Source: Candidatus Hydrogenedentes bacterium CG07_land_8_20_14_0_80_42_17 (GTDB lineage Bacteria; UBA8481). Taken from it: DNA of 6,032 bases. Shown here in pieces: positions 216-6,032 of this stretch (its first letter is position 1; every line of letters begins with the position of its first letter). A program made the position numbers and the translations under genes. The notes under the pieces were generated by a model. It saw only the letters and a list, made by a program, of their open reading frames with translations. It searched no databases and was not told the origin of the DNA. The stretch spans positions 1 to 6,032 of the forward strand of contig PEWQ01000047.1 of assembly GCA_002780065.1 (NCBI GenBank). The letters are read 5' to 3'.

Positions 216-327
216 ATACCCGCCTATTTGCTTCAACCAACTCGCTCGGTGCAAAATTTTTCAATATGATACTGCTGGATTTTTTCGGCGTGGTCTTACC
301 ATTAAACCATCGGCTGACTATCTTACT
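196..327 (-). other. Coding-like remnant, possible end of an HTH protein
   Basis: The gap between the GreA-like gene and the AlbA_2 fragment is not obviously random. In the frame ending at TGA 198-196, codons 327-199 read as 43 uninterrupted residues, including VSRWFNGKTTP, which resembles the recognition helix and turn of XRE-type regulators, then a helix-like segment NFAPSELVEANRRVYE. The frame stays open a little further upstream inside the GreA-like gene until a TGA, but has no ATG, GTG or TTG start until a late internal TTG. It overlaps the start of the AlbA_2 fragment by 20 bases. It could be the decayed 3' end of a regulator gene, or chance. I do not claim a functional gene. Confidence 0.2.
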
Positions 328-598
328 CCAACATCCAGGGCATGGTTGCTTGGATCTCTTCCATTGTCATTCCTGAATCGAGTAATTGTTGGATTGCTTC
401 CTTCTTCTCATCACTCATCTTCTTCTCGGCAATTTTTTTCGCTTTCTCAGCATCTTCATTGGCTTGTTTGTATGAACGATACAAAGCCAGAGCTTCACGA
501 GCGGCATGGTATTCGGCGTTCTCTTTGAGATCGCCGAATTCGCGCGCCGTTTTTACGGCTTCGATCAGTTCTTTTTCTTTATCATCTATCATAGGCAT
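323..598 (-). CDS. Small GreA-tip-like coiled-coil protein
   Basis: A 91-residue, charged, mostly helical protein. Residues 10-36 (ELIEAVKTAREFGDLKENAE, then YHAARE) match the GreA/GreB coiled-coil tip almost word for word, and D23 and E26 correspond to the E. coli GreA acids D41 and E44 that position Mg2+ for transcript cleavage in the polymerase secondary channel. Around it the protein departs from GreA: the first helix is only about 20 residues, the second continues as a Lys/Glu/Ala-rich coiled coil to ~60, and the FKBP-like C-terminal domain is replaced by a ~30-residue tail with DEKKEAIQQLLDSGMTMEEI. It may be a stand-alone secondary-channel factor, an antagonist, or a decayed GreA piece with a new tail; the intact tip and open frame favour a working protein. 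Start ATG is 598 or 592, with no Shine-Dalgarno sequence. It follows coaBC by 30 nt and ends in TAA. Confidence 0.75.
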   Translation of the reverse strand: MPMIDDKEKELIEAVKTAREFGDLKENAEYHAAREALALYRSYKQANEDAEKAKKIAEKKMSDEKKEAIQQLLDSGMTMEEIQATMPWMLE

Positions 599-2694: not shown

Positions 2695-2723
2695 GTAGGG
2701 ACATGGCAATGCCATGTCCCTAC
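2695..2723. repeat. Perfect 29-bp palindrome closing the array
   Basis: Positions 2695-2708 are the exact reverse complement of 2710-2723, with a single A at 2709 between the 14-bp arms. The right arm is part of array unit 1 and the left arm is an inverted partial unit. It has the form of a complete palindromic REP- or MITE-like element from which the tandem units could have been copied. In RNA it could fold, but there is no U-run after it on the minus strand, so an intrinsic terminator is not supported. Confidence 0.9.
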
Positions 2724-2867
2724 GCAATGCCATGTCCCTACGCAATGCCATGTCCATACGCAATGACATGTCCATACGCAATGACATGCCCATACGCAAT
2801 GCCATGCCCATACGCAATGCCATGCCCATACGCAATGCCATGTCCCTACGCAATGCCATGTCCCTAC
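2695..2867. repeat. Nine-unit 18-bp tandem repeat array
   Basis: Nine head-to-tail 18-bp units fill 2706-2867, plus an 11-bp inverted half unit at 2695-2705. The plus-strand consensus is GCAATGCCATGTCCCTAC. Units 1, 2, 8 and 9 are identical to it. Units 3-7 (2742-2831) carry substitutions at three sites: C to A giving CCATAC in all five, C to A giving ATGACATG in units 4-5, and T to C giving CATGCCC in units 5-7. There are no unique spacers, so it is not CRISPR. It occupies almost the whole gap between the large amidase-nuclease gene and the kinase gene. The unit resembles half of the GTAGGG...CCCTAC palindromic repeats I recall from many bacterial genomes; that kinship is from memory. Confidence 0.95.
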
Positions 2868-5800
2868 TTGCCTTGACTGTAATATGATTCGAATGCAGAC
2901 ATATACTCGGATGCAAGTTTTGACGCTTTCAAAACCAGCAAATTTTCATCATTGCGGAATGATGACGAATATGTCCAGTTTGCGGAGCCTGTTATTAATG
3001 TCGGTTTACTCGATGCCGGATCCACAACCATAAATTTGTTGTGCATCAAACCGCTTGCTCCGTCTTTCTTTACGTCGATGCCTTTGTCTCTCAAAGAACT
3101 GACTTGAGACAATTCTGAAAGAGCCTGCCATGCGTCGGCAACCCCGCGTACTTTGACTCCACGGTCTTTGGCGCGCTCGAGAGCAGATGCAATATCAGGG
3201 TCAGTGAAAGTGAAGATAGCAAATGCAATCTCCGTCTGAGCTCCGTCGATCGCTTCGATAATGCGGTTTTTGATTTCACCGCTTGGAGAAAAATAAACCT
3301 CTGCTTCTATAGTGCTCTTCACAGGATCGACTGCAATGCGATTTCTTATTGCATTGAATATTGCCGCGTCCATTCCAGGAACCTGAAGAAGATCCTCAAT
3401 TACTGTGAACGGTCCATTCTTCTTTCGCTCGGAAATAATGTTGGCTGCAAGTTCTTCCGATACTCCTGAAAGCTTCGCAAACGTTGACGCTCTAGCTTTG
3501 TTTATGTCTACGATGTCGGAAGGCAATCTAATAGTGGTTTGTGCGCTTATTCCGCCGCCTTTGGCCGTCGAAAATTTTCCACTCCACATTCTGTTGAATT
3601 CGGAAAGATACGCAGAGGCGAGTTCGTTGGACCGGATCACGAGGGCGTTATTCGCATTATTGTAAGAGTCTTTTACCGTCATGTTTGCTGAACCGACCCA
3701 GACAGTTCTTTCGTCGATTATCGCAAATTTGTCGTGCATGAGCGCATTGCCGGATTGATCGCTTTTTACGATTGTTATTCCCGCGGCTTCAAGCTCTTTT
3801 GCGTATGGAGAATAAAGAGAGCTACTGTAGTTCGAACCGTCCATAACTATTTGAACGTTCTCGGGACCGAGATTTTCTGCGGCGTAGATTAAAGCGTCGA
3901 TATCCATTCTTGAGTCAAGCGCGTAAATTGCTACTTTGACGGACGATGATGCGTTTCGAATCATCGTGGAAAGTTCAGATTCATATCTGCTCTGCCCGTT
4001 GCTCTGGTTTAGCGATGCGGAGATAACTCCGGTTTGACGCTCTACACTTACAACAAGCGAACCTTCTAATGTCTCTTTTCCTTTTGAGGTATTTACAGTG
4101 ACAGCTTTTGTCACCGTGACTGACGGCTCGTTTCCAAATTCGACATCGAATCTAACTGAAGTTAAAAGTTTATCGCCTTCAAATGCGTTGGCTGTAAAAG
4201 TATGGACTGAACCGGGAGAGACTAAAGTCGGACCCTCGATTGTGACAAATCTTTCTGAACCTTCATAAGAACTTGCCGCGACGAGCATCGGCATTAGAGA
4301 TGCGGAAATAGTTTGAGGAGAAATCGGTGCCGCAATTATCGGAGTTTGTGAAGGCAGAATCGAGGATGCTGCAAGCATGAATGAAGCGGCTTTTCTAACA
4401 AGAGCTTGCGTAATCAACCCGGATGAATTGCCTGCGCCTGCAGTGCCTTCTCTGCTACCGACTTTGCCGTTCGATGTCTGCCATGAATTTGGCTCAGTGC
4501 CTGCTAGCTCGGGTTTCTTCCGCTCCATAGAAATTCCTTTCGTTGTGTTCTTGCCGCCAAACCATGCGCTTGTTGAACCAATTCTGTCGATAATTTGAGA
4601 TGAGGAATTTGTCGGACTTCCAGTCCATAAAGTTACGATCTGCCCGCTTTGCTTCCAAGTCTGAGCGTCAATCTCGTCAACTGTGATTCCTGTTAGTGCT
4701 CCGGCATCTGCCGCAACGTAATATCCTTTTGCTTTTATGATGGCCGGACTGTTTATGATAACTTGAACTCTGTCGGTTGTAGCACCTGTTCCGGCAGTGA
4801 TTCTCCAGTTTGCAATTGAAATATCATTCGATGTTCGATTGTAAAGCTCGATATACTCGTAGCCGTCCCACATGATTTCGTTTACTACTATATCTCCAGC
4901 TTGAGGCCCCGCGGGAAGCTTAGAAATCGCAATTGAGTTCCACCAAGTTGAACCGGCTTCAACGTTTCTTACACCTGAATTGGATGAATAGCCGGACTTA
5001 GTAACTGAGACCGTGTATTGACCAGGAGTGAGATTCGAGAATACATAAAGCCCTGTTGCTGATGAGTAAACCTTTTGTCCGCCGGGAGAAATAACAGCTT
5101 CGGCTCCGGAAATTTTTGCTCCGGTTGTTTGATCAGAGACGATTCCCTGCAGAGTTCCTGTCTTTGGCGAGGCTGTGACATTTACAATAAACGGCGACAC
5201 GGGAGAACCGGAAGGCAACCGCCCAAGATTCGAGGGACTAAATGCATCGCTCGCTTCAATGTAATATTCGACTCCGCTTGGAGTGACGATGGATGAAGGA
5301 ATAGTTGCTGAATAAATTTCGCCGGCGCCTTTCACCATTGTGACCGAGGTCCAAACTGATGTTCCTCTGGCGCGATAATAAAGTTTTGCGGAGCTGATTC
5401 CAGAGGCATCTGTTATCGTCGCGGATATTTGAAGAGCGGAACCTTCTTGAGCTTGAGAAACAGCCGAATGAGAAATTACCGGAGGCACTGCGTCGGAAGG
5501 AACGGTTTTTCCAAGATGAGTCATAATGCCTTTGAAGATTGCATCGGCTGAAGAATTGAGATGAGATATGTTCTTCAACTTCTGCTCTTCCGTTGGATTT
5601 GATATGAAAGAGTTTTCGACGAGCTGAGCAGGCATATTTGTTTCGCGAACTACATGGAAATTGTCGGCATGAACTCCGCGAATTCCGATGTTAGTCGATA
5701 CGACTCCAATCTTGTGATAGAGATCTAGTTCATTCACTGTCTTCGATGCGAGGTCTTTTGAATTTTGCGATGCAGAGGTGTAAACATGACTTCCAGTGTA

Positions 5801-6032
5801 ATTGGCGGATTGGCTGGAACTAGCGTTTTGATGGATAGAAACGAATCTGTCCACTGCGAGTGAATTGGCGAGATTGGTTCTGCCGCTGAGCGAAACGAAG
5901 ACATCACTGGCGCGTGTCATGTAAACAGTCGCGCCCTGAGCCGTCAAGAGGTCTCTGACGCGCGCACCGATTGTAAGTGCGCAGTCAGCTTCTCTCAAAC
6001 CTGTTGGACCAATAGCGCCCGGATCGCCGGGA
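2864..6032 (-). CDS. Mosaic amidase / lamin-tail / HKD-nuclease protein, 5' partial
   Basis: The frame is open to the window edge, so the N-terminus (signal peptide, first zinc His) is missing; the TTG at 5998 is an internal Leu, counted here as residue 1. Just before it the frame reads PGDPGAIGPTG, the usual Amidase_3 lead-in. Domains: Amidase_3 ~1-165 (zinc ligands E3 and H56 in SIHQNA, catalytic E128 in LVENSFISN); Ig/Fn3-like ~172-277; carboxypeptidase-regulatory-like ~281-358; lamin-tail domain ~366-518 (VVNEIMWDG, YIELYN); hydrophobic Ala/Ser/Pro linker ~527-577; beta-rich ~581-665; HKD domain 1 ~671-808 (H755, K757, D762, GSAN 769-772); ComEA-like helix-hairpin-helix ~828-890 (VDINKA, NGPF, VPGM); HKD domain 2 ~897-1042 (H986, K988, D993, GSAN 1004-1007). 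All visible catalytic residues are intact. By family knowledge it would cleave peptidoglycan stem peptides and hydrolyse phosphodiesters, probably DNA. Export is inferred from the domain set. The stop TAG lies in the first unit of the repeat array. Confidence 0.93.
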   Translation of the reverse strand, partial: PGDPGAIGPTGLREADCALTIGARVRDLLTAQGATVYMTRASDVFVSLSGRTNLANSLAVDRFVSIHQNASSSQSANYTGSHVYTSASQNSKDLASKTVNELDLYHKIGVVSTNIGIRGVHADNFHVVRETNMPAQLVENSFISNPTEEQKLKNISHLNSSADAIFKGIMTHLGKTVPSDAVPPVISHSAVSQAQEGSALQISATITDASGISSAKLYYRARGTSVWTSVTMVKGAGEIYSATIPSSIVTPSGVEYYIEASDAFSPSNLGRLPSGSPVSPFIVNVTASPKTGTLQGIVSDQTTGAKISGAEAVISPGGQKVYSSATGLYVFSNLTPGQYTVSVTKSGYSSNSGVRNVEAGSTWWNSIAISKLPAGPQAGDIVVNEIMWDGYEYIELYNRTSNDISIANWRITAGTGATTDRVQVIINSPAIIKAKGYYVAADAGALTGITVDEIDAQTWKQSGQIVTLWTGSPTNSSSQIIDRIGSTSAWFGGKNTTKGISMERKKPELAGTEPNSWQTSNGKVGSREGTAGAGNSSGLITQALVRKAASFMLAASSILPSQTPIIAAPISPQTISASLMPMLVAASSYEGSERFVTIEGPTLVSPGSVHTFTANAFEGDKLLTSVRFDVEFGNEPSVTVTKAVTVNTSKGKETLEGSLVVSVERQTGVISASLNQSNGQSRYESELSTMIRNASSSVKVAIYALDSRMDIDALIYAAENLGPENVQIVMDGSNYSSSLYSPYAKELEAAGITIVKSDQSGNALMHDKFAIIDERTVWVGSANMTVKDSYNNANNALVIRSNELASAYLSEFNRMWSGKFSTAKGGGISAQTTIRLPSDIVDINKARASTFAKLSGVSEELAANIISERKKNGPFTVIEDLLQVPGMDAAIFNAIRNRIAVDPVKSTIEAEVYFSPSGEIKNRIIEAIDGAQTEIAFAIFTFTDPDIASALERAKDRGVKVRGVADAWQALSELSQVSSLRDKGIDVKKDGASGLMHNKFMVVDPASSKPTLITGSANWTYSSSFRNDENLLVLKASKLASEYMSAFESYYSQGK

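Follow-up and report, generated by a model that had tools for sequence, protein, structure and literature searches.

The window analysed here, a stretch of 6,032 nucleotides, encodes on its minus strand a protein in which a secreted cell-wall amidase is fused to two phospholipase D (PLD) lobes with a helix-hairpin-helix (HhH) pair between them. The fusion is an unusual combination of ordinary parts, known from one genome, and each of its halves is an already known type of secreted protein. As stated in the initial annotation, the gene occupies a single unbroken frame; it runs from position 6031 to a stop codon at 2864–2866 (1055 amino acids), and the order of domains along it is Amidase_3, beta-sandwich, CarboxypepD_reg, lamin-tail domain (LTD), and PLD lobe-HhH-PLD lobe. 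A profile search confirmed the domain order read earlier from the sequence, with Amidase_3, CarboxypepD_reg, LTD, PLDc_2 (twice), and HHH_3 all scoring above the Pfam cutoffs.

The window is the complete contig C15 of genome G000 (2.39 Mb, 207 contigs, 87% complete), and the fusion gene is therefore cut off at position 6032, so that 2864..6031 (minus strand) holds its 3′ 1055 codons and the stop. The 5′ end, with about 50 codons before the overlap, was located on contig C126 (L003:9997-10184, plus strand). The last 36 bases of C126 are identical to the beginning of the fusion-gene strand (5997..6032, minus strand), and reading continues upstream in frame. C126 encodes MKHFEKFFSFVSIGLIILAITADSSAGTLSGIKLAIDPGHGG... 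in the frame of the fusion gene, the upstream in-frame continuation reads MKHFEKFFSFVSIGLIILAITADSSAGTLSGIKLAIDPGHGGQSGQTYNGLPGDPGAIGPTG, and the start codon, a signal peptide, and a DPGHGG motif are all present. The signal peptide, identified by inspection as Sec-type (MKHFEKFFSFVSIGLIILAITADSSA-GTL), lies at the true N-terminus and agrees with the earlier suggestion of a secreted protein, and DPGHGG is the segment with the first histidine of the amidase that had been expected upstream of position 6032. The pieces of the gene on C126 and C15 were read separately rather than as one joined sequence, and the DPGHGG...PGAIGPTGLKEAD-like segments of related amidases from genomes G135 and G271 align with both of them. 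Given the exact overlap, these aligned segments, and the propeller-amidase gene arrangement in the same two genomes, the C126/C15 join is well supported.

The Amidase_3 domain (PF01520; residues 3–169, 5525..6025, minus strand) was recognised by Pfam with an E-value of 8e-39 and 133.8 bits against a cutoff of 27, spanning profile positions 11–172 of 174. The catalytic residues listed in the initial annotation as E3, H56, and E128 correspond to E14, H67, and E139 in open-frame numbering; all are present and invariant in an alignment with three other amidases. With DPGHGG on C126 supplying the first zinc ligand and E14, H67, and E139 located in the window, the set of zinc ligands and catalytic glutamate is complete. 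Among solved amidases, 4rn7 and CwlV come nearest. Residues ~176–285 (5177..5506, minus strand) gave no Pfam match above the cutoff; this region, situated between the amidase and the CarboxypepD_reg domain (residues 293–359, 4955..5155, minus strand; Pfam, E 2e-9), is probably another beta-sandwich, by inference of the Fn3/Ig-like kind. The LTD (PF00932; residues 377–470, 4622..4903, minus strand) follows, with an E-value of 2e-10 and 41.3 bits versus a cutoff of 34.3 in Pfam. A second amidase of this genome, with a longer catalytic domain, is encoded by a separate gene (G000:C117, 524 amino acids).

The C-terminal half begins with an Ig-like beta domain (residues ~598–677, 4001..4240, minus strand), followed by two PLDc_2 matches (Pfam, E 4e-49). 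Lobe 1 covers residues 681–825 (3557..3991, minus strand; HKD motif H766-K768-D773-GSAN) and lobe 2 covers residues 906–1055 (2867..3316, minus strand; HKD motif H997-K999-D1004-GSAN), both delimited by Pfam and by a structural model. The HKD signature is HxK(x)4D(x)6GSxN (PMC5714352); lobe 1 matches it exactly, and lobe 2 retains H, K, D, GS, and N with a four-residue insertion before GSAN. Among solved sequences, the nearest to the PLD half are the mitochondrial cardiolipin hydrolase (MitoPLD/Zucchini), Nuc, and NucT. The AlphaFold model of this half has a pLDDT of 80, exceeding 90 over most of both lobes; its nearest folds are PLD3/PLD4 (VIA-align Z 32 and rmsd 2.4 over 294 residues for PLD3), and its second lobe matches Nuc with an rmsd of 1.3. 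The fold predicted for the PLD half is thus a pseudo-dimer, with PLD3/PLD4 and Nuc as its nearest structural relatives. The initial annotation had called it a nuclease. This assignment is likely to be correct, as opposed to a lipase, in that the nearest PLD relatives are nuclease-type; it stops short of proof, since PLD lipases and phosphatidylserine synthases share the fold of the model, although with somewhat lower scores.

Between the lobes lies the HHH_3 pair of helix-hairpin-helix motifs (residues 840–899, 3335..3514, minus strand), matched by Pfam with an E-value of 4e-16 and 59.2 bits against a cutoff of 27. Its hairpins read GVS and GMD in place of GIG, the second glycine being gone in both; relatives from genomes G030, G060, and G061 keep canonical GIG hairpins, and that from G135 is partly degenerate. 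Given the loss of the second glycines, the HhH of the fusion protein may be structural and may no longer bind DNA. The AlphaFold model gives this segment a low pLDDT, which is probably due to the absence of HhH from the other rows of the alignment, and the confident structure comprises the PLD lobes only.

Secreted amidase and PLD-HhH-PLD genes are still separate in other phyla. Full-length relatives of the C-terminal half were found in only 5 of the 386 sampled genomes (G000 itself, G030, G060, G061, and G135), and outside G000 it is a separate protein of ~500–570 amino acids consisting of a hydrophobic N-terminus, an Ig-like domain, and PLD-HhH-PLD. In contrast to the PLD half of the fusion, these standalone proteins have a signal peptide of their own and no amidase attached. 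Those of G030, G060, and G061, all from the phylum of G030, show 38–41% identity across the whole C-terminal half, Ig-like domain and HhH included, and the G135 protein matches it in two blocks (32% and 40%). For the N-terminal half, relatives are encoded in G135 (37% identity, residues 3–372, E 3e-50) and G271 (35%, E 1e-40), both members of another phylum than G000. These secreted amidases (G135:C127 and G271:C279) have the N-terminal order signal peptide-Amidase_3-Ig/CarboxypepD_reg in common with the fusion but stop after the beta domains, of which the CarboxypepD_reg domains come last, without the LTD and the PLD part. Similar orders, with Amidase_3 followed by Ig or CarboxypepD_reg domains, occur in L010, L144, L146, L159, and L183. 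Neither kind of standalone relative contains a counterpart of the LTD.

The boundary between the halves is marked by a hydrophobic junction (residues 548–587, 4271..4390, minus strand), the 40-residue stretch of highest hydrophobicity in the windowed protein (mean Kyte-Doolittle value of 1.10, next best 0.51). It falls exactly between the halves, where the standalone PLD relatives carry their signal peptide, and LVAASSYEGSERFVTIEGP at the G000 junction resembles the mature start of these proteins, e.g., PALYQGEYALIVEGP in G060. The junction is probably the fossil signal peptide of a once-separate PLD protein, and the case suggests a route of origin in which two genes for secreted proteins fused and the second signal peptide was left as a scar.

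The rarity of the combination, suspected in the initial annotation, was borne out: a search with each half in 386 genomes revealed no second amidase-PLD fusion. None of the amidase frames of up to 1059 amino acids screened for PLD-like segments contained a PLD, and some of the longer amidases, analysed by Pfam (L010, L159, L180, L183, and L184), have other partners, never PLD. Within the same phylum, represented by two genomes, G001 has two-lobe PLDs and no PLD-HhH-PLD. When plasmids and phages were searched with the whole protein, no place covered 80% of it and no second fusion emerged among the matches listed, which for plasmids amounted to at most 5000 records. With regard to a viral origin, IMG/VR yielded one weak match. 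The literature searched contained no described amidase-PLD fusion, including Amidase_3 and PLDc_2 together, and no paper on a lamin-tail domain with phospholipase D and nuclease in bacteria. Having no second genome behind it, the fusion rests on one metagenome-assembled genome (MAG).

Several known proteins resemble parts of the fusion. Proteins with an LTD and tandem PLDc_2 domains (L062, L068, L073, L121, L122, and L127) are likewise large and bring together an LTD and two PLD lobes, but they have no amidase and no HhH between the lobes. The HKD motifs and fold of the PLD half are common to Nuc, NucT, and PLD3-PLD4, none of which has an HhH insertion or an amidase fusion; moreover, Nuc and NucT are single-lobe homodimers, whereas the fusion has two lobes in one chain. 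CwlV-type and AmiC-type Amidase_3 enzymes share its amidase domain and catalytic residues, with no PLD unit attached. Vibrio cholerae Xds combines a signal peptide, a lamin-tail domain, and an extracellular nuclease in one protein (PMC6746945); unlike the fusion, it has no reported amidase and no PLD-HhH-PLD order (PMC6746945).

On contig C126 the fusion gene is preceded by a gene for a PD40-type propeller (L003:9026-10000, plus strand), whose stop codon overlaps the fusion start codon; DNMK, rpoZ, and coaBC are the other neighbours. The amidase relatives of G135 and G271 are also located directly downstream of a propeller-like gene, which Pfam supports weakly in G135 and not at all in G271. 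The arrangement in which a propeller-like gene directly precedes that of a secreted amidase is thus seen in two phyla (L003:9026-10000, plus strand; L164:9388-10503, minus strand; L165:2566-3666, plus strand), and the two could possibly form a functional pair. The G000 genome encodes BamA/Omp85, and its cell envelope is therefore very likely diderm. It also contains pilus or type II secretion ATPases and, on contig C154 (L170:4816-8792, plus strand), a ComEC gene directly followed by one for a 285-amino-acid, ComEA-like protein with three HHH_3 repeats, the hairpins of which are mostly canonical.

Taken together, there seems to be about an even chance that the fusion protein is an exported bifunctional hydrolase for peptidoglycan and nucleic acid, most likely of dead or lysed cells. 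According to this proposal, the fusion of two secreted-protein genes would have produced a single enzyme that is exported by its signal peptide. Its Amidase_3 domain, in which the zinc ligands and catalytic residues are intact, would cut the MurNAc-L-Ala bond of peptidoglycan, while the beta domains and the LTD would space and tether the enzyme. In the PLD pseudo-dimer, the two lobes would form one active site, to which each contributes an HKD motif, and we infer that this unit could cut DNA or RNA via the phospho-histidine mechanism known from Nuc, NucT, and PLD3. The enzyme would probably serve to digest wall and nucleic acid that dead or lysed cells, or biofilm, have released, at or outside the cell surface. 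However, no recognised outer-membrane secretion or sorting domain was seen at the C-terminus, and the protein may therefore stay periplasmic. Against such a bifunctional hydrolase stand the occurrence of the fusion in only one genome and the presence of lipases and synthases among tandem PLDs, between which the fold alone cannot decide. Should the two halves both be active, a single secreted chain would breach a bacterial wall and break down the DNA lying behind it; the fusion also defines a small PLD-HhH-PLD family, which is testable in the simpler standalone proteins.

One could suppose that the fusion is an artefact, two separate genes having been joined in silico between ~4270 and 4500. 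It is present in one MAG only, and in G135, G271, and G030/G060/G061 the halves occur unfused, but the frame is single and without a stop, and the hydrophobic remnant is modified rather than an intact signal peptide with a start codon. In addition, apart from the overlap at the end of C126, the DNA of the gene has no match elsewhere in the genome, which leaves no visible long repeat to cause a misjoin, and the codon usage of the halves correlates at 0.71, inside the range of 0.56–0.94 among the genes of this genome. Taking these data into account, we regard a misassembly as very unlikely. A genuine gene could encode a polyprotein, one chain whose cleavage within the hydrophobic, AxA-like junction, or in a linker close by, would release a separate amidase and a separate nuclease and so restore the ancestral state of two genes, the fusion only coupling their expression. 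The hydrophobicity of the junction and the occurrence of LVAASSYEG where the signal peptide of standalone relatives ends are consistent with such processing, for which AtlA of S. aureus, cleaved into an amidase and a glucosaminidase (PMC3409170), offers a precedent. Since signal peptidase normally acts on N-terminal signals, and the junction lies below the usual transmembrane hydrophobicity (best 19-residue mean of 1.23), we consider this outcome unlikely.

The roles proposed in the initial annotation fared unequally: export, intact catalytic motifs, and nuclease-type PLD relatives agree with a secreted hydrolase, while predation, competition, and DNA uptake are hypothetical roles. The genome does have ComEC and a ComEA-like gene, but the HhH hairpins of the enzyme are degenerate. 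A periplasmic transformation accessory, whose amidase opens the cell's own wall and whose PLD-HhH unit holds and trims incoming DNA before ComEC, would suit a genome with ComEC and the adjacent three-HHH_3 gene, pilus-type ATPases, and a secretin that carries HHH_3 domains. In H. pylori, the PLD nuclease NucT, which resides in the periplasm, has been implicated in transformation and purine salvage (PMC5714352). However, besides the degenerate hairpins, the fusion gene lies, in the contigs seen, away from the genes for ComEC and the pilus, and standalone amidase relatives adjoin the propeller gene rather than competence genes, which makes this role quite improbable. A dedicated exported machine coupling local peptidoglycan opening to DNA capture and processing in one chain, which would be a hitherto unknown route of DNA acquisition that handles wall and DNA together, has a context in the ComEA-like HhH domains also borne by the secretins of this phylum, and we give it very little credence. 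A weapon, that is, an antibacterial or predatory enzyme lysing neighbouring cells and destroying their DNA, seems just as remote. The pairing of amidase and nuclease fits in principle, and two-enzyme chimeric effectors exist, e.g., TseP with an amidase and a lysozyme (PMC11893102), but the analysis revealed no marker of a secretion system, no toxin-delivery domain, and no immunity-like gene next to the fusion, whose neighbours are those named above. Moreover, killing is not to be expected of a nuclease that acts outside an intact cytoplasm.

Further features were seen in these genomes. Both members of the phylum encode very long secretins in which the secretin domain is followed by four ComEA-type HHH_3 domains: at L134:8116-12759 (minus strand) on G000:C204, with at least 1547 amino acids and near PilB/PilT/PilC-like genes, and at L172:10880-19000 (minus strand) on G001:C88, with at least 2706 amino acids. 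Several HHH_3 hairpins of the G000 secretin look degenerate, and DNA binding by it appears uncertain. The pilus/secretion cluster of this secretin also includes a 1119-amino-acid pseudopilin-like protein with an internal lamin-tail domain (L134:976-4335, minus strand). The standalone PLD-HhH-PLD genes of G030, G060, and G061 are divergent to further PLD-like genes (L006:171-1420, minus strand; L086:7104-8345, minus strand; L087:6254-7459, plus strand), a single long frame in each of G060 and G061 and a pair of frames in G030. In the window itself, a 91-amino-acid frame at 323–598 (minus strand) has only a partial GreA/GreB N-terminal match, and an 18-bp tandem repeat with nine copies (2706..2867, minus strand) overlaps the stop codon of the fusion gene. 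The repeat plays no part in the function of the fusion protein, and related copies are present on contigs C108 and C205.
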